The notes beneath the pieces are model-generated. The model ran no database searches and was not told the DNA's origin. It saw only the letters and a list, made by a program, of their open reading frames with translations. The position numbers were made by a program, and so were the translations under genes. Shown piece after piece: positions 5,590 through 19,782 of a stretch of DNA of 64,000 nt (position 1 is the stretch's first letter; each line of letters starts with the position of its first letter). The DNA lies in contig NZ_JAVDDX010000002.1 in NCBI RefSeq assembly GCF_030848575.1, positions 930,001 through 994,000 of the forward strand. The letters are read 5' to 3'. The DNA is from Haloarcula sp. H-GB4 (GTDB taxonomy: Archaea > Halobacteriota > Halobacteria > Halobacteriales > Haloarculaceae).

Positions 5590-5663
5590 GCCGCCTTAGC
5601 TCAGACTGGGAGAGCACTCGACTGAAGATCGAGCTGTCCCCGGTTCAAATCCGGGAGGCGGCA
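5590..5663 (+). tRNA. tRNA-Phe (anticodon GAA); integration target
   Basis: A 74-base cloverleaf: acceptor GCCGCCT/AGGCGGC with discriminator A, anticodon stem CTCGA/TCGAG around CTGAAGA giving GAA, and T-arm CCCCGG-TTCAAAT-CCGGG. The last 14 bases of the gene plus the next base recur at 19768-19782, marking this tRNA as the attachment site of the element that follows. The tRNA stays intact on the left side. Confidence 0.96.
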
Positions 5664-5664
5664 T
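5650..5664 (+). repeat. Left attachment site (att core) in tRNA-Phe
   Basis: 15-bp TCCGGGAGGCGGCAT, spanning the 3' strand of the T-stem and acceptor of tRNA-Phe plus one further base. It is identical to 19768-19782. Confidence 0.9.
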
Positions 5665-5732
5665 ACCCTTCTCGGTTTAGATGCCCAAACGACAACCCCC
5701 CATAGCCGGGGGTCTGTCCGGGAGTGGTCGGC

Positions 5733-6302
5733 GTGACCGATTCGGACCCCGACGGCGAGGGCACTTCTCCCGACGCGAACCCCGGGAACGAGAGTCTCGA
5801 AACCACCGTTCAGGCGCTGGAAGCGCGGCTCGACGCGCTTTCGAAGCAAGTCTCCGGACTCCGTGAGGAGCTTCACGAGGAACGGAGTGAACGCCAGGAG
5901 CTAGAGGACGAGCTGGCCGAGCGTGACGAACGTATCGACGACTTAGAAGCGGAGGTTGCGCGCCTCGATGCGCGCACCGACATTCTGGAAGTCGTCGAGA
6001 ACGCCGACAAGATGACTGGCAAGCAGCGCGCGGTGACGCTGGTCCAGCACCTTCACAGAGCGGCGAAAGCTCGTGAGCGGCGAGACGAACCGCCTGCAGC
6101 GACCGTCGACCGGGACGAAGCTGAGGAAGCACTCCACTACCCGAACATCGACCGGACGACGATCTACCGCGACATGGAGCGCGCGGCGCGGCTAATCGAT
6201 AGTGACGCGCTTCGGTACACGAACGGAGAGCTACGGCTCGATCTCGACGCTGGAAGCGTTCCTCGGAAGTACACGGCTGACCGGGAGGGCGAGAATCTGT
6301 GA
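5733..6302 (+). CDS. Coiled-coil protein with C-terminal helical domain, first gene of the element
   Basis: A 189-residue acidic protein. Residues ~20-90 form a long heptad-rich coiled coil (repeated Leu and Glu/Arg, as in 'LEDELAERDERIDDLEAEVARL' shortened). A helical, possibly winged-helix part follows at ~95-180, including 'TTIYRDMERAARLI'. It begins 69 bases after tRNA-Phe and precedes the helicase gene. Both the GTG at 5724 and the GTG at 5733 are possible; I prefer 5733, which has GGAG 9 bases upstream. The coiled coil plus DNA-binding-like tail and the neighbouring operators suggest a replication or regulatory role, but no family is recognised. Confidence 0.75.
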   Translation: MTDSDPDGEGTSPDANPGNESLETTVQALEARLDALSKQVSGLREELHEERSERQELEDELAERDERIDDLEAEVARLDARTDILEVVENADKMTGKQRAVTLVQHLHRAAKARERRDEPPAATVDRDEAEEALHYPNIDRTTIYRDMERAARLIDSDALRYTNGELRLDLDAGSVPRKYTADREGENL

Positions 6303-6312
6303 AGTCCTCACA
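6298..6312. promoter_or_regulatory. Palindromic site 1, probable operator
   Basis: TGTGAAGTCCTCACA, a near-perfect palindrome overlapping the stop of the preceding gene. It is a close match to the perfect palindrome at 6489-6503. Confidence 0.5.
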
Positions 6313-6429
6313 ACAGATGCGATGGGGGAAGCCCCCACCGGATAGGTCCGGTCTGAGCGAAACCGTCTGAAACCTTAGAATTTGCAGGGTAGGACGGTTA
6401 TGTAAACAACTGTCGATTAGCTGTTAGTA

Positions 6430-6457
6430 CGCTCGCAAACCGCTCGCACCGCTCGCA
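6430..6457 (+). repeat. Three direct repeats CGCTCGCA before the helicase gene
   Basis: Copies start at 6430, 6441 and 6450. Spaced direct repeats upstream of a replicative helicase could be iteron-like protein-binding sites, but three 8-mers are weak evidence. Confidence 0.35.
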
Positions 6458-6469
6458 GTCAAGACGAAT

Positions 6470-6490
6470 CAACAGCCTCCGCGGCTGTTG
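6470..6490. promoter_or_regulatory. Perfect 8-bp inverted repeat before the helicase gene
   Basis: CAACAGCC, a 5-base spacer, then GGCTGTTG. It abuts the palindromic site 2, so 33 bases of back-to-back dyad symmetry end 11 bases before the helicase ATG. Confidence 0.5.
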
Positions 6491-6503
6491 TGAAGACTTC
6501 ACA
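6489..6503. promoter_or_regulatory. Palindromic site 2, probable operator of the helicase gene
   Basis: TGTGAAGACTTCACA is fully symmetric around its centre and lies 10 bases before the ATG at 6514. Together with site 1 it brackets the intergenic region, as expected for a dimeric repressor. Confidence 0.55.
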
Positions 6504-6513
6504 GAAATCCACG

Positions 6514-8559
6514 ATGGCCGAAAACCACGAACTCACCGAAGACCTGATACAATTCTTCCGGGACTACTACCCGGAAGAGATCGCACAGCTCGCACAACGC
6601 TACCCCCGAGAACAGAAGTCACTCCACGTCGACTACGATGACCTGTACCGGTTTGATCCGGGTATTGCCGATGACGTGCGGAACCATCCGAAGGAGATGC
6701 AGGAACACCTAGAGGAAGCGTTCCGTCTCTACGACTTGCCGGTAGCAGTCGAGCTCAACGACGCCCACGTACGAATCTACAATCTCCCGGAGATGCACGT
6801 CTTCGACCCTTCGGGTGTATCTCGTCATGAGAACATCGGCCAACTGCTCGACATCCGCGGACAGGTCCAGAAGGTGTCCGACGTGAAGCCCCGCCTCACA
6901 GAAGCCGTCTGGGAATGCCAGCGGTGTGGGACCCAGACTGAGATTCCACAGCACGGGGATAGTCTGCAGGAACCGCACGAGTGTCAGGGATGCGAACGGC
7001 AGGGCCCCTTCTCGCTCGACGCCAGCGCCAGTAGCTGGATCGATCACCAGTACGCCCGTGTCCAGCAACCGCCCGAGAAAACGAACGGTGGAGAAGCACA
7101 GAGCGTCGACGCGCACCTCGAAGACGACCTGATTGAAGGCTTCGACGCGGGTGATAGGGTGGTTCTGACCGGGATTCTGGATATAGAAGAGCCCGGTGCC
7201 GATCAAGAGCTCGACTTCGACACGAACCTCGACGCGCGTTCAGTCGTGAAAGAGGAAAGCGACTACGACGATGTCGACGTAGAGGAGCACCTCGACGAAA
7301 TCGAAGCCGTCGCCAACGGGGAACGCGGCGACCCGTACCAGCTACTCATCGATTCGATCAACCCGAAGCACAGGGGTGATGAACAGGTCAAGCTGGCCGT
7401 CGCCCTGCAGCTCTTCGGCGGCTGGGCTCACGAGTACCCGGACGGGAGCCGCGACCGCGGGGACTGGCATATGCTTCTCCTCGGTGACCCGGGCTGTGGG
7501 AAGTCGACGTTCCTCCGCTACGTCGACCAGATTGCCCCGCGGTCGACGTATGCATCGGGGAAAGGCGCGACGGCAGCGGGCATGACCGCGGCGGCAGTCG
7601 CTGATGACTTCGGAGATACTGAGTGGGGACTGGAAGCCGGTGCGCTGGTACTGGCCGATGGCGGTATCGCCTGCGTCGACGAGATTGATAAGATGCAGTC
7701 CGACGCGGTGTCCTCGATGCATGACGCCCTGGAGAGCCAGCGGGTCCACGTCAACAAGGCCGGTATCAACGCAACACTGAACGCCCGGACTTCGCTGCTG
7801 GCGGCAGGGAATCCGAAAGACGGTCGCTTCGACCGCTACCGCCCGAAGGGTGAACAGATCGATATGAGCCCGACGCTGCTCTCCCGGTTCGACCTGATGT
7901 TCATGGTATCCGACCAACCCGATCGGGAGGACGATGCGGATGTCGTTGAGCACATGGTCCAGAGTCGGCAGGCTGCAGGCCGTCACACCCGGGGTGAGGA
8001 ACTGAGTGACGAGGAACAGCAGCGGGTCGAGCCCGCGATAGACCGGTCGATGATGCGGGCCTACGTTGCTCACGCGAAGCAGACCTGTCGACCCATCATC
8101 GAGGATGACGAAGTTGCGGAGCGATTGAAACAGTTCTTCGTCGAGTTCCGAGCTGGGGCTGGTGAGCAAGACGATGACTCACCGATTCCCGTCACATTCC
8201 GGAAGGTCGAAGCGATACAGCGGCTTGCCGAGTCCAGTGCACGGGTTCGTCTTTCGGATACTGTGGAGATTGAAGACGTAGAGCGGGCGATTAAATTAGT
8301 GACAAGATCGATGAAGCAGGTAGGGTACGATCCAGAAAGTGACGAGTTCGATGCTGATATTATTGAAACAGGACAATCGAAGAATCAGCGGAGTCGCCGT
8401 GAACGTATCTTAGCGAGGATTACTGAATCAGATGGGGTTTCCATCGAATCTCTGAACGACGAAGTAGACTTCGACCAAGAGAGACTAAAGCGTGACATTG
8501 AAAACTTGAAAACAGAAGGACGGATCTACAGTATGAATGGGGAGTACAGAAAAACTTAG
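6514..8559 (+). CDS. mcm: MCM-type replicative helicase of the element
   Basis: A 681-residue minichromosome maintenance homologue: DNA-dependent ATPase and 3'-5' helicase, acting as a hexamer. The N-terminal domain carries a zinc motif with CxxC pairs near residues 134 and 157. The AAA+ domain has Walker A 'GDPGCGKST' (~324), Walker B 'CVDEIDKM' (~388), sensor 'LAAGNPKDG' and the arginine-finger stretch 'LLSRFDL'. A winged helix closes the C-terminus. The frame extends to a GTG at 6490, but the ATG at 6514 clears the palindromic operators. Integrated MCM copies are common in archaeal plasmids and viruses and imply self-directed replication. The last ~80 codons turn AT-richer, matching the DNA that follows. 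Confidence 0.95.
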   Translation: MAENHELTEDLIQFFRDYYPEEIAQLAQRYPREQKSLHVDYDDLYRFDPGIADDVRNHPKEMQEHLEEAFRLYDLPVAVELNDAHVRIYNLPEMHVFDPSGVSRHENIGQLLDIRGQVQKVSDVKPRLTEAVWECQRCGTQTEIPQHGDSLQEPHECQGCERQGPFSLDASASSWIDHQYARVQQPPEKTNGGEAQSVDAHLEDDLIEGFDAGDRVVLTGILDIEEPGADQELDFDTNLDARSVVKEESDYDDVDVEEHLDEIEAVANGERGDPYQLLIDSINPKHRGDEQVKLAVALQLFGGWAHEYPDGSRDRGDWHMLLLGDPGCGKSTFLRYVDQIAPRSTYASGKGATAAGMTAAAVADDFGDTEWGLEAGALVLADGGIACVDEIDKMQSDAVSSMHDALESQRVHVNKAGINATLNARTSLLAAGNPKDGRFDRYRPKGEQIDMSPTLLSRFDLMFMVSDQPDREDDADVVEHMVQSRQAAGRHTRGEELSDEEQQRVEPAIDRSMMRAYVAHAKQTCRPIIEDDEVAERLKQFFVEFRAGAGEQDDDSPIPVTFRKVEAIQRLAESSARVRLSDTVEIEDVERAIKLVTRSMKQVGYDPESDEFDADIIETGQSKNQRSRRERILARITESDGVSIESLNDEVDFDQERLKRDIENLKTEGRIYSMNGEYRKT

Positions 8560-8731
8560 TAAGACTGCTGCTTAGGCGTCAGCATCGGTACTGCTGTCAC
8601 TGTCTGACCCCCAGAACCGAGTCCAAACAGACTTATCACGGTTACGTCGTGGACCCTTGTTGAATTTCATCTCAATCAAATATTGAGAGTCTGAATTCAA
8701 AAAGCTTGTCCTCAATCTGCTATACTTGATT

Positions 8732-9763
8732 TCAGTATATTCTATCGTCAATTATCAATAGCAAGGCGCCTACTAGTACAAATAGAGAAAAATCCACAGG
8801 ATGAACCAGTAGTAGTAGTTCAAATATTGAGTCAGGAAGTAGCATGGCCAAAATGGCTGGGTGTGAGGGGGACAAGCGAAGAGCACTTGGACTGAGTAAT
8901 AAGACCGCCGTAGCGAGGTTAAGAATGAATATCATGGAAAAGAACCAGACTTGTTTTGGATATCCGTAAATCACATTTGATACAGTGAACATTAAGAAGT
9001 AGAATGGAACTGCAACCCAGATGTATGTTATATGTGCTTCAATAAAACATACCCATGCGCCAGTTACTATGATTGTTGGTAATATCGAAATTCCGGTATA
9101 GAGTAAGTGGCGTCCTCCGGCTAATTCGGGGAAAGAGAGAACGTTTGAATATATAATTACAGCAGGGAGAGACACCAATAGTGGTAAGACTGCGATTACA
9201 TCACTGGTGCCATTATTAACCGTCCCCGTGATAAATACGCCAGCAGCAATATATGCTAATGCGTTGATTGTTATTATTGTCGTATAAGTTATAAATCTCC
9301 CGTTATCTTGCAGGACTGAGTCGTTGTGTGAAATATATTCCTTGTTTTTGTTTACAATCATAGACACGGAGTCGCGCTTTCTTTGCTTTTCATAATATGC
9401 CCGGTCGACTTCACGTGGATCAATTCCGCCCTGTAGGGCCGAGGCTCTGTAAGTTATAGCCCCGGCTGCTAAGGATCCAATCAGTAGAGTAACACCAATG
9501 ACGGAATTAATATTTATTAGTACATCTATATCTGGACTGGAGTTCCCGACTGCTACTGATGCCAAGCCAATAACTATACTTAAAAAAAGAATATTAGCTC
9601 GGTATATCCGGATAGCCTTATCATCTATGTCAGATAGAGTGTCAATCTGATAATCCAGTGTTCGGTTTGTTTGGTCAAGGATTGTTTCCAACGAATCTCT
9701 TGTTGGCGGTTGCTCATTGTTTTTGTTCTCGTCACACTTGTCAGAGCCACAATCGTCAGACAT
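8732..9763 (-). CDS. Multi-pass membrane protein in an AT-rich block, unknown function
   Basis: A 343-residue protein. The N-terminus is soluble and polar (1-~52, containing 'LDYQIDTLSDIDDKAIRIYR'), followed by two membrane segments (~53-72, 80-100), a charged stretch (~105-150), and about six more hydrophobic segments to the C-terminus. Codon use is clearly AT-rich compared with the core chromosome, a sign of recent transfer. It lies downstream of the DUF91/EVE nuclease gene on the same strand, 140 bases apart. Nuclease plus membrane protein is a layout seen in defence modules, but no family is recognised. Confidence 0.7.
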   Translation of the reverse strand: MSDDCGSDKCDENKNNEQPPTRDSLETILDQTNRTLDYQIDTLSDIDDKAIRIYRANILFLSIVIGLASVAVGNSSPDIDVLININSVIGVTLLIGSLAAGAITYRASALQGGIDPREVDRAYYEKQRKRDSVSMIVNKNKEYISHNDSVLQDNGRFITYTTIITINALAYIAAGVFITGTVNNGTSDVIAVLPLLVSLPAVIIYSNVLSFPELAGGRHLLYTGISILPTIIVTGAWVCFIEAHITYIWVAVPFYFLMFTVSNVIYGYPKQVWFFSMIFILNLATAVLLLSPSALRLSPSHPAILAMLLPDSIFELLLLVHPVDFSLFVLVGALLLIIDDRIY

Positions 9764-9903
9764 CCAGATATTGGTACCAATATCTATTGACCAAATAAAT
9801 CTACTCGTGGGAAGTTGCCATTTTGCATATATCTGATTGATAAATTTGGCGTCAAAGTCGTTAAAAAGGCTGTCAGAGTAGACCTAGCCAGAGAAAATGC
9901 TGG

Positions 9904-11034
9904 TTAAAGAGCAGAGACACCGAACTCATCATAGAGTCGATCTAGTGTCTGCTGGTCTTTCAATCGAGTTACGGTATTTTGGTTTGCATACATGCCCTTC
10001 TCCCAGATAGCGTCATTCATATCAACAGTTTCAATCCAATCAACCCCGATTAAATATTCTCGAAGGTCAGGGTCATCTTTATTCTGACTGAGGTCACCTT
10101 CAAGTTGTGCCTCTGTAATTGGCTTGTTACCATCCTCAATCATGAACTCATCAGCAGGCGTCTTTTCTTGGGTAACTGTTCCGACCCCGATGTATCCATC
10201 CCCAGGGTGGTAAACAAATATTCTGGAGCCCTCTGTCGCTTTGTCCATTGTCCGATGGTACCACTCTCCGCCTCCGCCTGTAATAAACCCGTATTCTCGG
10301 GCATCACTCCATTTTCGGTAAGAGTTCGCCCCAAAGTTACCATAGAAGTCATGGCCGTTCCATGATTCTTGCTCCTGTTCCGTCTCCTCATCTTCAATCT
10401 CATGTGGATCATTAAGCCAAGACCGAGCGATATACTCTCGACCATCTTCCTGATAATAATTGAAACGGACTGCATTGATTGGTACCTCAAATTCTTCAGA
10501 AAGGTACTCAATAATCCGTTGAGTGGATCCGTCAAGTTCCGATGCGACAATCGTTAAATAATGCTGATTGTTAATTTCGTCAGGACCCTTTGGTGTGTCG
10601 TCGTTACTCGGACGGAATTTAGCATCAAATCCTGCTTCAAACGAGTCGGTATTTTCTGCAGAGTCTTCATAATGTCGTTTAATATCTTCGTATCCAAGGT
10701 TACTAGCCCAAGACGCATAGTCCATTGTCTGAGCCGTAACTTCTCGCGGGGTTTGATCGCGTTTTAATTCGATTACGTGAAGATCCCCGTCGCTGTCTAT
10801 AGCAAGGATATCGAGACGCTTTCCATCTAGAGTGGTTATCTGCCGGTCGATTACCAGCAGTGGCTGACCGAGTACGTTTGGGTCTTGTAGAAGGAACTTT
10901 TCCAAACGGTCTTCCTTATCAAGACGATTCGAAGATACTCGTTCAAACTCATCATCGTCTCTAATACGCCATAGGCCTAAATCGATTGGCACAATCAATG
11001 TCCATGTAAAGTCAATGTATATCTTCTTCGCCAC
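9904..11034 (-). CDS. DUF91/NucS-like PD-(D/E)XK nuclease fused to an EVE/PUA-like domain
   Basis: A 376-residue, probably two-domain protein. Residues ~25-140 match the DUF91/NucS-type nuclease fold: Glu45, Asp75 in 'KRLDILAIDSDGDLHVIELK', Glu89 and Lys91, then 'TAQTMDYASWA', which carries the motif-IV Gln/Tyr. Residues ~215-376 look like an EVE/PUA-type domain ('GEWYHRTMDKATEGSRIFVYHPGD' region, then 'GYIGVGTVT'), a fold known to read modified bases. It probably binds and cuts particular DNA, possibly modified DNA; the target is not visible. AT-rich codons suggest transfer. It probably forms a unit with the membrane protein downstream. Confidence 0.75.
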   Translation of the reverse strand: MAKKIYIDFTWTLIVPIDLGLWRIRDDDEFERVSSNRLDKEDRLEKFLLQDPNVLGQPLLVIDRQITTLDGKRLDILAIDSDGDLHVIELKRDQTPREVTAQTMDYASWASNLGYEDIKRHYEDSAENTDSFEAGFDAKFRPSNDDTPKGPDEINNQHYLTIVASELDGSTQRIIEYLSEEFEVPINAVRFNYYQEDGREYIARSWLNDPHEIEDEETEQEQESWNGHDFYGNFGANSYRKWSDAREYGFITGGGGEWYHRTMDKATEGSRIFVYHPGDGYIGVGTVTQEKTPADEFMIEDGNKPITEAQLEGDLSQNKDDPDLREYLIGVDWIETVDMNDAIWEKGMYANQNTVTRLKDQQTLDRLYDEFGVSAL

Positions 11035-11192
11035 ATGAGTGGATTCTGACTAACAGACAGTCAAAATACATTTTATTAACAAGTCAAAGTTGTTGAAGAA
11101 CTACGACACGGAACCCGCGATATCGAGCCATAGCCGACGACTCCGGGTCAAACTGTGGTTTATGGTGTCGGACTTTTCATTGAGAAGTATCC

Positions 11193-11792
11193 ATGCGAAT
11201 CGAGCGAAATCAGAACCATCACTCGTACCGCTGCTGGCTGACGCCGGACGAGTACAAGACCCTCAAACAGAGCGCAGGTAGCTACCAGGACTCCCTCATC
11301 ATCCAGCTCGGCGGCGAAGTCGGGCTTCGGTCCTTCGAGATACCCCAGATTCATCCGGAGCACATCAAGCACGTCGACGGGCACGCTCGGCTCCGCGTTC
11401 CCCAAGGGAAGGACACTGAGGGGAGCGGCGGGAAGCCTCGCGACGCCTACCTCCCGGAGCAAGTCGAAAGCGAGCTGCTCCGCTACGCCAACGTCGAGGA
11501 CATCGACCGCGACGAGCCAATCATCGACCTGAGTGAGCGGTCGGTACAGCGGCGGATCAAAGCCACCGCCGAGCGGGTTGCAGAGGAGACCGGCGACGCC
11601 GACTGGCAGAAGCTTTCGAGTCACGATCTCCGACGGTACTACGCGCAGACGCTCCTAGTGCGTGAGCGGATGAACCCCAGAGTGGTGATGGAAGTCGGTG
11701 GGTGGTCGTCGTTCTCCGCGGTCGAACCGTACCTGAACGCTCCCACCGCGGAGGTAGTGAACCGGGAGTTCGATGACGTGGCGTTCAGTTGA
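11193..11792 (+). CDS. Short tyrosine recombinase (catalytic domain only)
   Basis: A 199-residue site-specific recombinase made of the catalytic domain alone. The expected active-site set is visible: Arg46 in 'GEVGLRSFEI', a Lys around 73-81, His144-x-x-Arg147 in 'SSHDLRRYYAQ', Trp171 in 'GGWSS' and Tyr180. It lacks the N-terminal core-binding domain of full integrases. It is the second recombinase in the element and may serve a nested element, dimer resolution or gene inversion. The convergent nuclease gene ends 25 bases away. Its own attachment site was not found. Confidence 0.85.
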   Translation: MRIERNQNHHSYRCWLTPDEYKTLKQSAGSYQDSLIIQLGGEVGLRSFEIPQIHPEHIKHVDGHARLRVPQGKDTEGSGGKPRDAYLPEQVESELLRYANVEDIDRDEPIIDLSERSVQRRIKATAERVAEETGDADWQKLSSHDLRRYYAQTLLVRERMNPRVVMEVGGWSSFSAVEPYLNAPTAEVVNREFDDVAFS

Positions 11793-11817
11793 TCGAGTTA
11801 GCTGCTACAGTTCCAGT

Positions 11818-12435
11818 TCACTCTGAGAGAAGCCAGGTGATGACGGCGCCGTGTTGGTGATGGGGGTGCTGTAGTCCGTCGAAAGTTTCGAGCGTGGCAA
11901 TCTCGATATCGATGTCGTACCAGTAGGAAACATCCTGCTCGAACTTCTCGGCTATCGTCTCCGCACGTAGTTGTTCGTACTCCTCATCCTCTTTCTCGTA
12001 GTAGAGACCGAGTAGTCCCGTGGGCTGGTCGAAGTCAGATCCGATTAACTTCTTCGCGTCGGTAAGCATAGACGACGAGCTACGTTCCGGGAAGGGGCTG
12101 AAGACGCTCTTGTACATATTCGGGTCGACGTTTCCATTATCCCGCCTGAAGCGGAGCAGCTTCGCTTCAACCGGGAGACAAACATCGCCACTCTGGACCA
12201 ACAGGTCACACCGCCGTTGACTGCCTGGATAGGACATCTCGGTCCGAATCTCCACGCCCGTATCGTCACTGTCGGCCAGCCCGTCGAGGATCATCTGGAT
12301 TTGGTTCTCCTCCTCAAAGGGACCGATACCGGCTTTCCACTCTTCATGACGTGCTTCGGCATCGACTCGCGGGATCACATCTGCAAAATCACGGGCAACT
12401 CGTTGGAGAACTACCGAGGGGGTCTGCATACACAT
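11818..12435 (-). CDS. PD-(D/E)XK nuclease-like protein
   Basis: A 205-residue protein whose centre has the restriction-nuclease pattern: acidic residues at 41-43, Asp77 in 'RRCDLLV', then Glu90-x-Lys92 in 'LPVEAKLLRF'. The C-terminal half is acidic with aromatic patches. No specificity domain is seen, so the target is unknown; anti-invader DNA cleavage is a reasonable inference. It converges with the short recombinase. The noncoding repeat region lies upstream. Confidence 0.7.
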   Translation of the reverse strand: MCMQTPSVVLQRVARDFADVIPRVDAEARHEEWKAGIGPFEEENQIQMILDGLADSDDTGVEIRTEMSYPGSQRRCDLLVQSGDVCLPVEAKLLRFRRDNGNVDPNMYKSVFSPFPERSSSSMLTDAKKLIGSDFDQPTGLLGLYYEKEDEEYEQLRAETIAEKFEQDVSYWYDIDIEIATLETFDGLQHPHHQHGAVITWLLSE

Positions 12436-13413
12436 CGATGGCGAGTGATAACGGATATGCTTTCCCCAGCAGATAAGGGGGCAAAGCAGGTGGAAAGGGG
12501 GTGCTCAGGAGTGCTGAGCGGTCGCTCTCCGGAACCCGGCTAAGCTGAGAAGCGAAAAGCAGCAGTAGAGGGGTCAGAAGCTGTACTCAAGCGGTAGAAA
12601 GAGCAGGCAGGAAGGGCCCTTTGAGGGGGTGGTAGCTGGTGGTCGTCTAATCACGACCCAGATTTAGGGTAGAGGGCACTCAAGCAGCGCTCAAGTACAG
12701 AAGCTAGCGGTGGTCGAGGACCTCTCAAGCAGTGGTCGTGCTGGTACGAGCTGGAAGAGCAAGGGGACGACCCACCACGAAGGGGCCCTTTAACCCCTTG
12801 CTTCCATGCACCGGCTGTCACGACCAGCGAGAAAGGGCGCTTCAGTTCCCTCAAGCAGAGAAAATCTTCGCTTGCGAGCAGCGGCGAGAAGCAGCAATTC
12901 TGCCTGCTTCCCAAGTACGGAGTCTGCGACCAGCGAAACGAGGGGTTAGAGGGGCCTGAAGCAGCACAAATCAGGCGGTAAGAGCAGGGGTGAAGGGGCC
13001 CTTCAGGGGTGGCCTTCGGTGGTCGAGTTGAATCGAGGGGGTAGAGACCAGCAGATACCACTAAGTTGATTACAATATACCTTGTCTAATTGCCACTTCA
13101 TTATGAGTCAGGCTATTCTCGGATCAACACCTTGCCGCAATTCGAATCTCTTCTCCGGCTACTATCTCAACGAACGAATTTTTCGCTAGGACACAGTCAT
13201 ACCCTTCAAATAAATATCTCCATGCTTGCCTTCAGATTAATTCCTTACTAAAAACCCGATATTTACCCCGTAATTATTTCTTGAAAGAAAATATGGTTAA
13301 ACCATGCACCAATCACTAGTACGCACAATAACCACTGACGGCGCCAGTTTAGCGAAATCGAAAAGCCTAGTACCCCTGCCGTCCTTGGATATAGTACATA
13401 GCACGGCCGCAGA
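12436..13413. other. 978-bp noncoding region with repeated palindromes and purine-rich motifs
   Basis: No convincing gene is present: ORFs here are not acidic and have poor codon use. From 12.48 to 13.06 kb the + strand is purine-rich. It carries three copies of a near-palindrome GAAGGG(G)CCCTT(T/C) at 12611, 12779 and 12992, recurring 'CTCAAGCAG' (12674, 12723, 12850) and recurring 'GTGGTCG'. From about 13.07 to 13.41 kb the DNA turns AT-rich and probably holds the promoter of the next operon ('atatagtacata' near 13390). Candidates are a noncoding RNA, a replication or partition site, or a decayed gene. Confidence 0.55.
12611..13004. repeat. Three dispersed copies of a GAAGGGGCCCTTC-like palindrome
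   Basis: Copies at 12611-12622, 12779-12791 and 12992-13004, each centred on GGGCCC. Spacing is about 168 and 213 bases. Confidence 0.5.
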
Positions 13414-13422
13414 GTGACACAT

Positions 13423-14133
13423 ATGGGATTTGATACAGAAGCCGACATGCGCGAAGTAGCCCAGGGGGCTCTTCGGAATGCATTCAACGAACCCGAAGCA
13501 AAACTATTCGAAGAATTCTCGTACGGATCGGGACGCGCAGACTATGTCCTTGCCCGTGTGTCTGAAGCGTACCTCTCACGCAGACTCGATGACTTAAATA
13601 TTAAAACCGCGATTGACAACGATCGCATTCTACAAGCGTTTCTCCTCCTTCACAACCGCGAAACCATCTCAAAAGACTACTACTACGAGATGGGTGCTCT
13701 AGACCAGTCATCAAAGAAAGAGGCACTCAACTGGCTTACCGAACATGGCTTCGCCAAAGAAATCGGGGAGTCATACATACGTTCAACCCCAAACCTTCGA
13801 CGTCACGTCACCACTGCATACTCAATCGAATTGAAACTTAGTAAATGGAAAGAAGCGCTCAGACAAGCGTTCCGTGGCAAGGGATTCTCCGAATACCAAT
13901 GCGTAGTCATGGACGCCGAATACGTTGATCGAGCACTCAACAACAAACACCGGTTCGAAGAGCATGGTATCGGTCTTATGTCACTGACCGAAGACGGGCA
14001 CTATGAAATCCATTTGAAGCCGGAACGTAGCAACCCCTATTCGTTGATAAACAAGTGGCGGCTTAATGAAAGAATTATAGTGGAGGCGTCAAAATCTAAC
14101 ACTCATCAATATGTTGGAGCAGCTGGGGATTGA
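13423..14133 (+). CDS. PD-(D/E)XK-like protein with internal winged helix, gene 1 of the kinase operon
   Basis: A 236-residue protein. Residues 28-45 give 'FEEFSYGSGRADYVLA' with Asp40. A helical, probably winged-helix insert follows (~60-130). Then come 'YSIELKLSKWKEALRQA' with Glu136 and Lys138, and a strand 'QCVVMDAEYV'. The split Asp...Glu-x-Lys pattern is that of PD-(D/E)XK nuclease-fold proteins, so DNA binding or cleavage is inferred. A GTG at 13414 is an alternative start. Its end overlaps the kinase start by 23 bases, so the two are translationally coupled. Codon use is less GC-biased than in core genes. Confidence 0.65.
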   Translation: MGFDTEADMREVAQGALRNAFNEPEAKLFEEFSYGSGRADYVLARVSEAYLSRRLDDLNIKTAIDNDRILQAFLLLHNRETISKDYYYEMGALDQSSKKEALNWLTEHGFAKEIGESYIRSTPNLRRHVTTAYSIELKLSKWKEALRQAFRGKGFSEYQCVVMDAEYVDRALNNKHRFEEHGIGLMSLTEDGHYEIHLKPERSNPYSLINKWRLNERIIVEASKSNTHQYVGAAGD

Positions 14134-14971
14134 TGATATTCAAAATCATTTCCCTGAATTCAAGATAGAGAACCACATCGCGGACGGTGGCCAAAAGAAA
14201 GTTTATCTTGGAGAATACGACGGAGAACAAGTTGTTATCAAGCTGATTCCAACCGAACGCCGAAGATCAGCTCGACGCGCAAAACGCGAAGTTGAGACCA
14301 TGGAAACCGTCGCTGCTGACGCACTCGTGAATCTCATCGACTACTTTACAGACGCCATCAACGACACCTCTGTGCTCGTTATGGTCGAAGAGTACATCCC
14401 TGGGCCAACACTCCACGAAGTCATTGATAACGGAAATGTAAGCGCTGAACTCGGCATCAATGTCGCTCAGACCCTACTAGAAGCCTTGCAGAAGTTTGAT
14501 GAAGTCGATATTGTTCATCGGGATATTAAACCATCAAATATCATCATTGCCCCAGATGACCGAGTTCGGTTACTCGACGTTGGTATCGCTCGAATGCTCA
14601 CACGCACCAGTATCACTCCAACACGTGCCTCCCATGGCCCGGGAACACCCACCTATGCATCTCCGGAGCAACTCAACAACAACAAAGATCTCCAAGATAT
14701 CCGCAGTGACTTGTTCTCCTCAGGAATTGTGATGTTCGAATCACTTACTGGAGCGCATCCGTTCGCGTCCGACGATCTCGGACTTCCAATCCCCGATGCT
14801 ATCCTTCAAAACGACAAGAGACCATTAGAGGGTTACTTAGACGACCAGAGCTTAGAACAAAAACTATACCCCATCTACGACAAGATGACGAAACCACAAC
14901 CCTTCCAACGATACCGACAGCCGCAGCATGCACTTGAGGAACTAAACGATGCAATTGAGGGTGAAATCTGA
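14111..14971 (+). CDS. Serine/threonine protein kinase, gene 2 of the operon
   Basis: A 286-residue Hanks-type kinase domain with no receptor part. Visible motifs: a modified glycine loop 'DGGQKKVYLG', catalytic-pocket Lys ~43 in 'VVIKLI', the catalytic loop 'HRDIKPSN' (~135-142), metal-binding 'DVG' in place of DFG (~156), and an activation segment ending 'GTPTYASPEQL' with 'SDLFSSGIVMFE'. All residues needed for activity appear present. It overlaps the gene before it by 23 bases and the gene after it by one base (TGATG). It probably phosphorylates a partner in the same cassette, with the phosphoesterase three genes on as a possible counterpart. Kinases of this type are known in several antiviral systems. 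Confidence 0.93.
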   Translation: MLEQLGIDDIQNHFPEFKIENHIADGGQKKVYLGEYDGEQVVIKLIPTERRRSARRAKREVETMETVAADALVNLIDYFTDAINDTSVLVMVEEYIPGPTLHEVIDNGNVSAELGINVAQTLLEALQKFDEVDIVHRDIKPSNIIIAPDDRVRLLDVGIARMLTRTSITPTRASHGPGTPTYASPEQLNNNKDLQDIRSDLFSSGIVMFESLTGAHPFASDDLGLPIPDAILQNDKRPLEGYLDDQSLEQKLYPIYDKMTKPQPFQRYRQPQHALEELNDAIEGEI

Positions 14972-16173
14972 TGTTTGACGAACCAAGCTTCTTCATTCAA
15001 ATGGGTTACAATGCCGGGAAACTCGGCCCGGAAATAATGGAGAAAGGCTTTGCAGACGGTGCCATTCTCAGTCCCGCAGACTTCGATAAAGACCGGAACG
15101 TAGAGCTATCCCGAGAATTCCACCGGGCTGGTGGTACCGTCTTGTTCGACCCACAGTTCTATATCCCGCGAGCAGACCGGCCCAGTCTCAGCTCATATGA
15201 TTACTTCGGTGATCACGGAGGGCACGACTTCGATACTGCTGAAGTTGGTGGAAACCTGAACGAAGTCTGTACACAAATCCTGGCTGTTCAGGATGATTTA
15301 GATGTTGACGCATACGTGTCACCAGCAAGAACTCTCGACACGTTCTCCTCTACGAAGGTTGACGAGTGGCTTGATTATACTGAAGCTTTCATCGAGGTCG
15401 TTGACGATCAGGGACGAGATATTCCAGTTCTGGCATCTCTGCCTCTCGAAGGAGTGCCTCTCAACGATAAGGATCAACGAGACACCCTCCTTAACCGAAT
15501 TACTGGACTTGACCCTGACGGGTTCTATGTGTCCGTTGAGTTCGACAAAGCAGACCGATATCCACTGACTGGTGTGTCGAATATTTATTCGTATCTCGAA
15601 CTTCTGAACACTCTACGAAAGAACCAGTACGATATCATTGTCGGGCACACCCACCACGTTGCGCATCTATTCATGGGTATCGGCATCAATGCTTTCGCAT
15701 CCGGTCATTACAACAACCTTCGTGCGTTTGATCAACGTCGATGGAAGCCAGACGACGGCCAAGGAGGTGGACGACTCGTCACAAAATATTATTCAGACAA
15801 ACTATTGAACGAGTTGCGTCTTGACCCAGATCTGGATCTCATGTATCAAAAAGGCGGGTTTGACATGGATCGAATCCGAATGAATTCGCCCTACGACGCA
15901 CCCCTGTTCAACAGTACCGATCCACCATCGACGGTCGGGTGGAACTTCCGCGAAGGTGCTTGGGATCACTATATTTGGGCCTGTTACCAGATTTCCCGCC
16001 AGTACCGTGGGAAGTCCTTGCCTGAGCGATTTGAAACTACAATGACAAAAATAGAAGATGCTGAAGACCTATTTGCAGATGTACAAGCAGAATTTGGGAT
16101 GATGAATGAGCCAGAAGGCAGTGTCTTCGATGATTGGAAAGCAGCGCTATCCACCATGAAATCAGATTTATAG
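14971..16173 (+). CDS. 400-residue protein of unknown function, possible TIM barrel, gene 3 of the operon
   Basis: I do not recognise a family. The sequence alternates hydrophobic strands and helices: 'DGAILSP', 'GTVLFDPQFYIPR', 'DAYVSPAR', 'IPVLASLPLE', 'DGFYVSVEF', 'DIIVGHTHH' and 'GINAFASGHYNNLRAF'. This is the rhythm of a TIM-like barrel, loosely like tRNA-guanine transglycosylase-type folds, though their signature motifs are absent. Conserved-looking polar spots are Asp-Pro-Gln (~63) and Gly-His-Thr-His-His (~225). The start is fixed by a TGATG overlap with the kinase stop, and the phosphoesterase begins 2 bases after its stop. An enzyme or sensor for a nucleotide or RNA substrate is possible but unproven. 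Confidence 0.7.
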   Translation: MFDEPSFFIQMGYNAGKLGPEIMEKGFADGAILSPADFDKDRNVELSREFHRAGGTVLFDPQFYIPRADRPSLSSYDYFGDHGGHDFDTAEVGGNLNEVCTQILAVQDDLDVDAYVSPARTLDTFSSTKVDEWLDYTEAFIEVVDDQGRDIPVLASLPLEGVPLNDKDQRDTLLNRITGLDPDGFYVSVEFDKADRYPLTGVSNIYSYLELLNTLRKNQYDIIVGHTHHVAHLFMGIGINAFASGHYNNLRAFDQRRWKPDDGQGGGRLVTKYYSDKLLNELRLDPDLDLMYQKGGFDMDRIRMNSPYDAPLFNSTDPPSTVGWNFREGAWDHYIWACYQISRQYRGKSLPERFETTMTKIEDAEDLFADVQAEFGMMNEPEGSVFDDWKAALSTMKSDL

Positions 16174-16175
16174 AA

Positions 16176-16862
16176 ATGGAAATTGGCGTAGTCTCGGATC
16201 TCCACTCAAATATGGTTGCACTTGATGCAGTCCTCCGAGACCTCGAAACAGAAAACATCGAGAATATACTCTGTGCAGGCGATCTGGTAGGGTATTACCC
16301 GTTCCCGAATGAAACCGTCTCACGCGTTCGAGATTTGAATGCACTGTGTGTGCTCGGCAATCACGACTTTGCCCTTGTCACCGAGACACCGAGAGATTTC
16401 AACCGGCTAGCGAAACGAGCACTGGACTGGAACCGCCGGAACCTCTCCGAAGAGAACCTCGTCTACTTAGAGGAACTACCAGAGACACGTCGATTGACAC
16501 TGGACGGTCTGGATATTTTCCTTGCACATGGCTCACCAGCCCGACCAATAAACGAATATATTTGGGAGGAAGACATTGACGAGCACTTCCTTGATGTGTT
16601 CTTTGAGTCACCGCCAGATGTCGTGATTCTCGGTCATACCCATCGTCCCTATGTAAAAGTAGTGGGGGACACATTGTGCATGAATCCGGGTAGTGTTGGG
16701 CAGCCGCGTGATGGTGATCCACGCGCATCATTTGGCGTTATAGACACTGAGTCGCTTGAGGCGGAGATTCGTCGCGTTGAATATGAGATTGACTGGGTTG
16801 CGGAAGAGACAGAGGAATATTTACCGAGACGGCTCGCGGAACGTCTCTATGAAGGCCGCTAA
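16176..16862 (+). CDS. Calcineurin-like metallophosphoesterase (YfcE/MJ0936 type), gene 4 of the operon
   Basis: A 228-residue single-domain phosphoesterase with the full metal-binding set: 'DLHSN' at residues 8-12, 'GDLVGY', 'GNHDF', 'AHGSP' and 'GHTHRP', plus the family's 'NPGSVGQPRDGDPRASF' stretch. It should hydrolyse phosphodiesters or phosphomonoesters; small members of this group act on cyclic nucleotides or nucleic-acid ends. It starts at an ATG 2 bases after the preceding stop, so it is the last gene of a four-gene operon. It may reverse or terminate a signal generated by the kinase or by gene 3. Confidence 0.93.
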   Translation: MEIGVVSDLHSNMVALDAVLRDLETENIENILCAGDLVGYYPFPNETVSRVRDLNALCVLGNHDFALVTETPRDFNRLAKRALDWNRRNLSEENLVYLEELPETRRLTLDGLDIFLAHGSPARPINEYIWEEDIDEHFLDVFFESPPDVVILGHTHRPYVKVVGDTLCMNPGSVGQPRDGDPRASFGVIDTESLEAEIRRVEYEIDWVAEETEEYLPRRLAERLYEGR

Positions 16863-16919
16863 TCCTGGGCAACTAACTCAGCAGTGAAAGAGAACCAGAG
16901 TGGACACAAGCATGGCCGT

Positions 16920-17120
16920 TCAACTCTTTTCCTCTACGACCTCAAGAAGTTCGTCAAGCAGCTCGGGGTGGTGTTCGTGAAGAATAGCGAGATCTTCGGA
17001 CAGTTCCTCGTCGATCTTCCGCCGGATACGGGAGACTGCCTGGTAGTAACGGTCGGACTTCTCCTCGGCTTCGAGGAGTTCCCGCTCGGTGTCTGTGAGT
17101 AGTGCGCGGCGGCGTCCCAT
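16920..17120 (-). CDS. 66-residue helical acidic protein, element-borne
   Basis: A small charged protein rich in Glu and Arg, helical throughout ('LLTDTERELLEAEEKSDRYY', then 'AVSRIRRKIDEEL'), ending in 'LLDELLEVVEEKS'. A TATA-like stretch at 17146-17153 (minus strand TATAATGA) lies about 30 bases before the ATG at 17120, supporting this start over the in-frame ATG at 17144. It may be a small regulator or coiled-coil adaptor. It is divergent from the Tat-signal gene. Confidence 0.7.
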   Translation of the reverse strand: MGRRRALLTDTERELLEAEEKSDRYYQAVSRIRRKIDEELSEDLAILHEHHPELLDELLEVVEEKS

Positions 17121-17324
17121 TTGCGAAGCCTGTTTGGGGGGCATCTCATTATACTGTGCCCTTCGTAGGCCCGTAAGGTTCCCATTTGCGGCAACTTCCC
17201 ACATATGGCAAAAGACTAAGTCCCATGTTGCCACAAGTGGGAATAAGAACACCGCGGCTACGCCATTTGGAAATGGCCGGTGCAAGGACACCGACCGCGG
17301 GTTCTCAACACAAGCCAAGAACCC

Positions 17325-17624
17325 ATGTCAACCGATGATACACGCAGAAATGAAAGCATCGCCTCGACGAACGACTCAAGCCGACGGCAGTTTCTCGGTG
17401 CTGCGGCCGCGGTCGCCGCGCTCCCGGTCGACCCACCAGCGGAGCCACAGCCCACTATCTCGGACGGTTTCGCCGCACACGTCGCCACCGAACACGTTGA
17501 ACCGGCCCTTCGGACTCTGACACGGACAGACTACGACCGCACAGAAGCTATCCCAAAGCTCGAAGACGCCCTTTCTCAACTCCGGAAAGAGACCGAGCAA
17601 CACCCCGATGGGAGGCGTAACTAA
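17325..17624 (+). CDS. Small protein with a Tat-like signal sequence
   Basis: A 99-residue protein. Residues 19-36 contain 'SRRQFLGAAAAVAALPV', a twin-arginine motif plus short hydrophobic stretch followed by prolines. That suggests Tat export or a membrane-tethered peptide. The remainder is polar and helical with no known domain. An upstream in-frame ATG at 17280 exists, but the ATG at 17325 places the twin arginines within a normal signal length. Why an integrated element should export a small protein is unclear; a surface-exclusion or toxin-like role is speculation. Confidence 0.6.
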   Translation: MSTDDTRRNESIASTNDSSRRQFLGAAAAVAALPVDPPAEPQPTISDGFAAHVATEHVEPALRTLTRTDYDRTEAIPKLEDALSQLRKETEQHPDGRRN

Positions 17625-18130
17625 CCCATTCACTCATTCATTCAATCAATTATTCACTCATTGACATATACTAAGTAGAGCCAGTTACTATGTGATACAC
17701 ATGCAGCACAAAAACACCCAAGAACAGAGATGAATTGCTTAGTAATTAACTAAGTAATTAACTTATTAACTAATCAACAGTTACTAAGTAGACTCACCGA
17801 ATATGGACTCAATACGCGGAATACAACCAACAAACAACTCACAGGATTCAGACAGATGACTCTCAAAAGTGGTAAAGTGCAAACGCATGGCCCTGACAAG
17901 CTCACCAGGCTTGGGCCATACGTTTTGAATCGATTGGACCGGGAAGATGTCTTCCCACTCTTAATTACTAGAGCTAGATACTTAGCACTTGGGGACGACA
18001 CGCTCCCGGTCCGGTGTCGCCGGCCTAACCGGCCTTCATCGGACGATGGAATTCAGACACGATGAGCTAACGTCGACCCAGCGAAGTATCGCATGCCACC
18101 CGAACAGTCGCCAGTCTGGGGGTGAGTGGG
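17625..18130. other. AT-rich intergenic region with short repeats and a hairpin
   Basis: 17631-17662 is a run of ATTCACTCATTCATT-like units. 17664-17790 is strongly AT-rich with three ACTAAGTA copies (17670, 17749, 17783) in TTAGTAATTAACTAAGT-type repeats. 17887-17919 can fold as ATGGCCC/GGGCCAT with an inner AAGC/GCTT stem. A 69-codon ORF at 17856-18065 and a 30-codon ORF at 18046-18138 are open, but neither has convincing codon use. The AT-rich repeats would suit a replication origin or regulator-binding region of the element. Confidence 0.5.
17664..17790. repeat. AT-rich repeat cluster with ACTAAGTA motifs
   Basis: Three identical 8-mers, two of them embedded in overlapping TTAGTAATTAAC direct and inverted repeats. 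The local GC content is far below that of the surroundings. Confidence 0.5.
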
Positions 18131-18277
18131 ATGATTGAGCGGTTCGGCCACGACAAGATTCGACTCGTCGAGTGTCCAGTCTGTGGCATCGACCTTCGGG
18201 ACAAGCGAGTCTCCCACCACGTCGCATCACATCGACCGAGTGAGTTCGGACTGTCGCCGCAGGGGGTGATTCAATGA
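18131..18277 (+). CDS. 48-residue C2H2 zinc-finger protein
   Basis: A short ORF encoding 'MIERFGHDKIRLVECPVCGIDL...'. The CPVC pair is followed 12 residues later by HHVASH, a classical C2H2 zinc-finger arrangement of the kind common in archaeal viruses and plasmids. Its stop overlaps the start of the next gene as ATGA (18274-18277), which supports translation and coupling. It is probably a DNA-binding regulator of the element. Confidence 0.75.
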   Translation: MIERFGHDKIRLVECPVCGIDLRDKRVSHHVASHRPSEFGLSPQGVIQ

Positions 18278-18462
18278 CGGCGAAGAGCGCAGCCGGGGAC
18301 CAATTCGTTCAGGAGAACAAGGACACGCTCGTCCGCATCATCAAGCACGGTGACGACGAGTTCGTCCGCGCGATGGCGCTGCAGGCGCTGATCCGGTACG
18401 GCAACGAACCCACCCTTCACGACGTGCAAAGCGAGATAGAGCGCGCAAAGGAGGAGGTGTAG
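18274..18462 (+). CDS. 62-residue helical protein coupled to the zinc-finger gene
   Basis: A small acidic protein of HEAT-like helical character ('VRIIKHGDDEFVRAMALQALIRYG'; I see one repeat only). It starts at an ATG overlapping the zinc-finger stop codon. It ends 12 bases before the convergent integrase stop. The function is unknown; position next to the integrase suggests a partner in element maintenance. Confidence 0.65.
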   Translation: MTAKSAAGDQFVQENKDTLVRIIKHGDDEFVRAMALQALIRYGNEPTLHDVQSEIERAKEEV

Positions 18463-18474
18463 ACGGTGTCAGCT

Positions 18475-19722
18475 TCAGCTCTCGGTGGCGTCAGCGAACG
18501 CCCGTGCCTCGCGGAGGATTTCGGGGTTCTCATCACCGAGCTCAATGAACCGCTCGACACGGTCGAGGTTGTCGAGGAAGTCGGGATCGTCGTGAGCAAT
18601 CTGCAACAGCTCCGATCGAATCTCCTTCTGTTCTCGTTCGATCTCCTCAACCGCCGCCGCGTCCATCGCCTGACTGCACCAGACGCAGGTGGGTTCGTCG
18701 CGGGGCGTCTCGTTCCGGCATCGCGGGCAAGTGGCCGGCGCAATCGGGTCGGACTCGTCTTCCTCCACGTCGACTCCGTGGGCCTGCGCGATAGCGCGGT
18801 CGTTGGCGTCACCGAAGACGGCGACGTACCGGGAAGCCACGTCCGAACCCCGGTCCCAGCCGTGGTGGTCTTCGAGGTGGGCTTGATTGACACCGTCCGA
18901 AGCCAGATACGACGCCGACGACTTCCGCATCTGCGTGAACGTTACCTCGGTGTGGTCGATTCCGGCCTTCCGAGCGTGCTTCTTGAGAATCTTCAGCTTC
19001 ATCTGGTAGCTGATATCCTCGGGTTTACTCAGTTTCGACCAGAGGGGCGCATCCGGCTGGTCCTTTCCCGGGTGGACGTTCAGCCACTGTCGGAGATGAG
19101 GGACGGATGGGACGAGCGTAATCGACCGCTCGCCCTTCTTCCCGTCGACGGAGATACGCAGGCCGTATTTGTGGTCAGAAACGTCTCCGACGGTGAGGTT
19201 ACGGAGTTCCCCGCTCCGGGCCCCGGAGTCCCATGCGACGGCGATGAGCGCCTTGTCGCGGGCGTGGCGGCACTCGTCAAGCATGGGCAAGATGTGTTCC
19301 TCCCACCAGAGCATCTTCGCCGGGTTCGGCATCGGATTGTAGTCCTTCGACGTAGTTGCCGAGACCCACGAGATGCTATCGGGAATCTCGTCGCCGTCGG
19401 TGACGTGCTTCCCGAACATCCTGAAGGCAACCCGGTAGTCCCGGTTGGACTCCTCGTTGTCGTAGGTGTCGTGAATCCAGCGGACGATATCCTCGGCAGC
19501 TCGCTTGTCGTCAAGAGAGTCAGCCAGTCCGCCGACTTCCTCGGCGATACGCACACAGTGCCTGAGGAGCTTTTCACGGCGCTCCTTGCCGTACTGACTC
19601 CCGAGCAGGGCGAGTCTGTTGTCGAAGGCCTGCAACACGTTCTGGTCGTCTCCACTCATCTCTTCGGCGCGCTCGATGCGCTCCTGCAGATTCTCGATTC
19701 GACGATCTGCGTTTCTCGTCAT
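18475..19722 (-). CDS. Tyrosine integrase of the element, with C-terminal zinc ribbon
   Basis: A 415-residue recombinase. It has an N-terminal core-binding part (~1-150) and a catalytic domain with Arg169 ('DSGARSGEL'), 'FTQMRKSSA' (Arg266), 'HHGW' (286-289) and Tyr299 in 'SRYV'. The usual first His of the HxxR box is Thr here. A zinc-ribbon-like segment with two CxxC pairs (~334-352) and a helical tail follow. It points away from the right attachment site, 45 bases beyond its start, the standard place for an element's own integrase. It should recombine the two 15-bp tRNA-Phe repeats. Codon use is GC-rich like the chromosome. Confidence 0.93.
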   Translation of the reverse strand: MTRNADRRIENLQERIERAEEMSGDDQNVLQAFDNRLALLGSQYGKERREKLLRHCVRIAEEVGGLADSLDDKRAAEDIVRWIHDTYDNEESNRDYRVAFRMFGKHVTDGDEIPDSISWVSATTSKDYNPMPNPAKMLWWEEHILPMLDECRHARDKALIAVAWDSGARSGELRNLTVGDVSDHKYGLRISVDGKKGERSITLVPSVPHLRQWLNVHPGKDQPDAPLWSKLSKPEDISYQMKLKILKKHARKAGIDHTEVTFTQMRKSSASYLASDGVNQAHLEDHHGWDRGSDVASRYVAVFGDANDRAIAQAHGVDVEEDESDPIAPATCPRCRNETPRDEPTCVWCSQAMDAAAVEEIEREQKEIRSELLQIAHDDPDFLDNLDRVERFIELGDENPEILREARAFADATES

Positions 19723-19767
19723 CTACATGGGGGGTTGTCATATAGGCATGTAAACCACCAGTTGAGG

Positions 19768-19782
19768 TCCGGGAGGCGGCAT
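19768..19782 (+). repeat. Right attachment site (att core)
   Basis: 15-bp TCCGGGAGGCGGCAT, identical to the tRNA-Phe 3' end at 5650-5664. The flanking bases differ, so this is a partial copy of the tRNA end without the gene body. Confidence 0.9.

Follow-up and report, generated by a model that had tools for sequence, protein, structure and literature searches.

What does a tightly packed run of four genes do in an integrated element of a haloarchaeal genome? The run lies in a 64,000-nucleotide stretch of Haloarcula sp. H-GB4 (NCBI RefSeq assembly GCF_030848575.1, contig NZ_JAVDDX010000002.1, positions 930,001 to 994,000 of the forward strand; hereafter the window), in which an initial annotation, made from the sequence alone, had singled it out as an operon. 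The four co-directional open reading frames (ORFs), here named A to D, are as follows:

13423-14133 (alternative GTG start at 13414), + strand: gene A, PD-(D/E)XK nuclease, from motifs and structural matches
14111-14971, + strand: gene B, predicted stand-alone Hanks-type Ser/Thr kinase, 286 aa (Pfam Pkinase, E 1.6e-34)
14971-16173, + strand: gene C, predicted tRNA-guanine transglycosylase (TGT)-fold protein, 400 aa (AlphaFold2 model, Foldseek, VIA)
16176-16862, + strand: gene D, YfcE-type calcineurin-like phosphoesterase (Metallophos_2, E 2.5e-30; TIGR00040)

Genes A and B overlap by 23 bases, the B stop and the C start share one base in TGATG, and two bases separate C from D, in line with the ORFs, overlaps and gaps originally reported. 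We found that three of the four genes, A, B and C, recur together, and we tentatively read them as a defence module.

Genes A and B were located next to C in all 24 C-bearing loci whose neighbourhoods were read, in haloarchaea, methanogens, Elusimicrobia, Desulfobacteraceae and other bacteria. Twenty of these loci came from the first searches, and four more, retrieved with a wider C profile, were checked afterwards; all four carry the trio, and two of them (L083 and L084 in our own numbering) are near-identical. B lies directly upstream of C in every locus and is fused to it once (L047), with B-C gaps that range from -23 to 87 bp across 20 loci and are mostly within 11 bp. The divergence of B follows that of C (Spearman 0.60, reached in none of 2000 permutations). 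The gene order is A>B>C in 11 loci, B>C>A in six, and B>C with a convergent A in seven; in the Elusimicrobia locus, A was found upstream of B by profile. The linkage is thus conserved in both archaea and bacteria, as are the catalytic motifs of the nuclease and the kinase described below. One copy is broken, with both B and C interrupted (L044:5448-7934), and hence the module also decays.

Gene D adjoins the trio in only four of the 24 loci (the window, L007, L008 and L046), all haloarchaeal. A fixed four-gene system was rejected on this count; D is accessory, and the recurring unit is A+B+C. The initial annotation had treated the operon as one functional unit and the phosphoesterase as its off-switch: the linkage of A, B and C supports the former for these three genes, with D optional, and the latter does not hold as a core function, D being absent from 20 of the 24 loci. 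The question raised there, whether the genes co-occur in other genomes beside defence genes, is answered positively for the trio, which adjoins restriction systems in a third of the loci (8/24).

Gene C has no match among the Pfam, NCBIfam, PHROG or PADLOC models. The top Foldseek matches of its AlphaFold2 model (predicted local distance difference test score, pLDDT, 78; predicted template modelling score 0.84) are TGTs, and all 50 entries among the VIA matches listed are TGTs, with Z of 20-21.4, about 300-320 residues and a root-mean-square deviation of 3.4-3.9 Å (best fold match: Z about 21 across 318 residues). In this predicted structure, the TGT (beta/alpha)8 fold spans the full C chain, which refines the possible TIM barrel proposed at first. 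A BFVD search yielded weak TIM-barrel and queuine-transferase matches only, the TGT profile PF01702 was unmatched by every C member scanned, and profile-profile comparison was not significant. As no link between C and TGTs was found at the sequence level, the assignment is drawn from the predicted fold. As modelled, C is a divergent TGT-fold protein, and it represents a new family by the absence of a library match.

We mapped C onto TGTs by strand order, using the residue numbers of the Zymomonas mobilis TGT. On this mapping, D60 of C (‘FDPQ’, at the end of strand 3) falls at the position of the TGT general base and does not vary across an 18-member C alignment, and the positions of the strand-4 Asp and of the strand-8 nucleophile (D280 of the Z. 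mobilis enzyme) are not acidic. The Cys3-His zinc site is absent from the window C and the other homologues, with a CxCxxC present in L047 only. C appears from the model to keep one TGT active-site Asp and to have lost the nucleophile and the zinc site, and it is probably not an ordinary TGT enzyme. A normal TGT is also present in all seven genomes checked, which sets C apart from the housekeeping enzyme. Extra TGT paralogues with DSGGF and CxCxxC motifs occur in two haloarchaea (L055 and L056) and resemble DpdA-type proteins. In the kinase-C fusion (L047:798-2867), which is followed by A and then by a type I restriction operon, the divergent C-like domain carries the CxCxxC followed by histidines; these residues support a descent of C from TGTs, and the fusion may bridge C and true TGTs.

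These residues bear on a Dpd-like restriction-modification (R-M) system, in which C would mark host DNA with a 7-deazaguanine-like base, A would restrict unmarked DNA, and B would be regulatory. The TGT fold, the conserved Asp that ends strand 3 and the nuclease partner fit this proposal, as does the TGT of the BREX-related capture (BRC) system (PMC12839542). However, the nucleophilic Asp and the zinc cysteines are missing by strand order, many copies of the trio lie next to a system equipped with a modification enzyme of its own, and DpdB/DpdC-like or 7-deazaguanine-synthesis genes were not recognised among neighbours read by eye, no profile search having been made; we consider this explanation unlikely. 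Alternatively, C could be a hydrolytic base-excision enzyme, using TGT chemistry without the covalent step in the manner of a restriction glycosylase, with A cutting at the excision site. Seven residues of C (Q10, D60, P118, G184, Y186, G245 and N249) are invariant at overall identities down to about 20%, which suggests ligand chemistry, and restriction glycosylases are known as a class (PMC10273834). This proposal leaves the constant adjacency of the kinase unexplained, and we regard it as quite improbable.

The other two members of the trio retain their catalytic motifs. A is a PD-(D/E)XK nuclease with an intact D...ExK active-site motif, as originally annotated, and the pattern G-x-x-D ... 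E-x-K ... Q is retained in all 20 aligned A homologues. Family conservation favours the ATG start at 13423 (MGFDTEAD) over the GTG at 13414. The structural model is moderate (pLDDT 70); its VIA re-alignment returned mostly PD-(D/E)XK enzymes, with Z of 11.2 for the uncharacterised protein 3dnx, 10.2 for PaqCI, 8.7 for XisH, about 7 for Can2/Cdn1 and 6.8 for BamHI, and Foldseek alone gave weak matches (best E 3e-3). No confident family was found for A in Pfam, NCBIfam or PADLOC, and one viral PHROG family is matched (phrog_22231, E 3e-16). The winged helix-turn-helix (wHTH)-like insertion that the initial annotation placed in A, between the motif-II Asp and ExK, is plausible, but the region is poorly modelled (pLDDT <50 at residues 57-87 and 122-127). 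Short A homologues lack it; restriction of the insert to haloarchaea was considered and rejected, given that long bacterial A proteins have an equivalent insert. A-like PD-(D/E)XK proteins unaccompanied by B and C were observed on three haloarchaeal contigs (L074, L075 and L076), two of which have adjacent DNA methylase-like genes, and in an IMG/VR sequence (L018).

B is a Hanks-type kinase by its Pfam match, with the catalytic Lys, HRDxKPxN and DxG intact, and HRD/DxG are kept in the aligned B proteins. Its nearest PADLOC models are the kinases PD-T4-6 (E 8e-48) and MADS Mad6 (E 1.5e-43). D scores 73.9 bits against TIGR00040, above the curated cut-off of 56.25, and is a YfcE member. The Pfam matches of B and D agree with the Ser/Thr kinase and calcineurin-like phosphoesterase first proposed.

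In eight of the 24 loci, the trio adjoins a DNA-modification-based restriction system, the kinds represented being types I, II and III, BREX-like and Ssp:

L042 and L043: type I R-M, hsdS and hsdR flanking the trio
L047: type I R-M, with the trio before hsdM and an hsdS-like gene
L045: type III R-M
L014: DpnII/DpnM
L007: Eco57I-type
L039: PglZ, SNF2 and methylase (BREX-like)
L015/L086: SspB-SspC-SspD with SspF/SspG-like and HerA genes (Ssp phosphorothioation)

For L043, the type I genes were assigned by visual inspection, on the basis of their resemblance to those of L042 and of a single N6-methylase match. Other defence-type neighbours are Mrr (L008), a PDC-S37-like helicase-nuclease (L038) and PDC-S11 (the window). 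These genomes hold 38 N6-methylase genes in about 61 Mb, a density that predicts about 0.15 such genes at distances of up to 6 kb from 20 loci, against three observed (Poisson about 5e-4). The contig that carries the L015 module also has a gene adjoining SspD (L086:12737-17227, - strand), which encodes a 1496-aa protein with tandem kinase domains and PglW-like and SspF-like regions.

In L042 and L043, the trio occupies the place, flanked by hsdS and hsdR, that prrC has in its own type I R-M locus. By analogy with PrrC, C could bind tRNA, as TGT enzymes do, and the module could stop translation when restriction is blocked. However, A resembles DNA restriction nucleases (PaqCI and BamHI), and its wHTH-like insert suggests DNA as the substrate; such a tRNA-directed backup seems to us improbable.

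Given its recurrence in distantly related bacteria and archaea, frequently next to restriction systems, the trio is probably an undescribed virus-defence module. The fuller reading, in which a sensor-kinase pair of C and B would control A as the effector nuclease, is the one we prefer, although we put it at slightly below even odds, and the same tentative standing applies to its further element, that the trio often acts as an add-on to DNA-modification-based restriction systems. Several observations weigh against it. A is coupled more loosely than B and C: it differs in position and strand among loci, its divergence correlates weakly with theirs (Spearman 0.24-0.28), and A-like proteins also exist apart from them. 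No modification-based system is adjacent in 16 of the 24 loci, including the element of the window itself; the methylase background control covers one family only, and the enrichment could arise partly from shared variable islands. The absence of an adjacent modification-based system from those 16 loci would suit a mobile-element cassette that serves regulation or metabolism and plays no part in defence. The restriction co-location would then be shared-island noise, and it can also be said in favour of this alternative that the functional links are all by association. On the other hand, nuclease and kinase motifs are retained over cross-domain distances, two genomes have the trio inserted within a type I operon, and at least five types of restriction system are contacted; we judge a cassette of this kind to be a remote prospect.

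Under the preferred defence reading, C would form a complex with the kinase B, and its barrel pocket would read a nucleobase or nucleic-acid state without exchanging bases. Candidate cues are DNA whose modification is wrong or lacking and an infection signal in the form of a tRNA or a nucleotide. The variety of modification systems that the trio repeatedly accompanies points either to DNA whose marks are absent or abnormal as the ligand or to a backup role for the module when restriction is blocked. Engagement of C could turn on B, which would phosphorylate A or a partner and thereby license A to cut DNA, so that the DNA of the invader or of the doomed cell would be destroyed; in some haloarchaea, D might reset the phosphorylated state. 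It is conceivable, albeit doubtful, that C belongs to an immune-sensor class not described before, in which a TGT barrel retired from base exchange reads base identity or modification and signals through a kinase to a nuclease, as a portable second layer for many kinds of bacterial and archaeal restriction system. If confirmed, the trio would be a defence module spanning both prokaryotic domains, of which current defence libraries detect the kinase only, and TGT-fold proteins would gain a sensor role instead of base exchange. Furthermore, the role in immunity of Hanks kinases near restriction systems (PglW, DndF and Mad6) would become directly testable, because this version consists of three small separate genes.

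The operon is carried by a tRNA-Phe-integrated element of about 14.1 kb (5640-19782), delimited as follows:

5640-5664, + strand: attachment site at the tRNA-Phe 3' end, a 25-nt direct repeat with 19758-19782
19758-19782, + strand: second attachment site at the far end of the element, a copy of the tRNA-Phe 3' repeat
18475-19722, - strand: tyrosine integrase of the element (Phage_integrase, E 1.8e-14)

The tRNA-Phe gene occupies 5590-5663, the two 25-nt repeats share 84% identity with the final 14 bases exact, and the integrase adjoins the distal repeat. The GC content of the operon is 47-50%, versus 60-65% across most of the window. The alien composition and the tRNA-integrated setting noted in the initial annotation were therefore recovered, and the mobile context extends to a C copy on a Natribaculum plasmid. 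C homologues are otherwise sporadic: six of 393 genomes of the phylum by single-sequence search, and by profile six of 293 genomes of the order and one of the 17 listed species in the genus. In bacteria, they were found in eight of 395 genomes of the phylum of the Desulfobacteraceae bin, five of 199 in that of the Elusimicrobia bin, and two of 17 in that of another bacterial bin. This sporadic occurrence, on a tRNA-integrated element and a plasmid, suggests that A-B-C has spread horizontally. Phage-borne genes were considered and rejected, as no C homologue was found in phage records or IMG/VR, where one A-like match was obtained.

Additionally, the element contains an MCM helicase gene and a NucS-like gene (9904-11034, - strand) that matches the PADLOC candidate PDC-S11 (E 1.9e-133) and is its second predicted defence gene. 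A small ORF at 11818-12435 has a nuclease-like appearance with a weak library match. The element may also enclose an older, nested insertion, to judge from a second integrase-like ORF at 11193-11792.

Consistent with the initial annotation, no named system corresponds to the trio within the libraries (PADLOC 2023, NCBIfam 2026 and Pfam, none of which gave a model for A or C) and the literature searched, in which it is not described; subscription papers and bioRxiv lay outside that search. Compared with the TGT superfamily (TGT, archaeal ArcTGT and DpdA), C shares the full-length predicted fold (Z about 21) and the Asp at the end of strand 3, but differs in showing no sequence-profile similarity, in the apparent loss of the nucleophile and the zinc cysteines, and in its linkage to a kinase. 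Among defence kinases, those of PD-T4-6, a single-gene system, and MADS (Mad6) provide the models closest to B; the Mad1-8 set is not present, since the kinase domain alone matches mad6 and none of the mad models is matched by A, C or D. Dpd systems also place a TGT-fold protein in a DNA-restriction setting, whereas C apparently lacks the catalytic nucleophile and DpdB/DpdC were not recognised in the neighbours read by eye. PglW of type 2 BREX and DndF are NERD-nuclease and Ser/Thr kinase proteins (PMC12839542, PMC10853773), and thus likewise combine a kinase and a PD-(D/E)XK nuclease beside modification-based systems; in contrast, the trio consists of separate genes, has a TGT-fold partner, shows no NERD match in A and lacks the PglW/DndF sensor domains. 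The BRC system, described in 2026, recruits a TGT-family protein into restriction (PMC12839542), but it is defined by HerA/FtsK, PglZ and others, and a trio with kinase and nuclease is not described there. None of the BRC core (HerA/FtsK, PglZ, DUF6079 and DUF4007) was detected among the element ORFs scanned, the scan having covered part of the window ORFs; the Ssp system beside L015 also includes DUF4007 and HerA. The folds are known, and the A-B-C combination and the C family are new.

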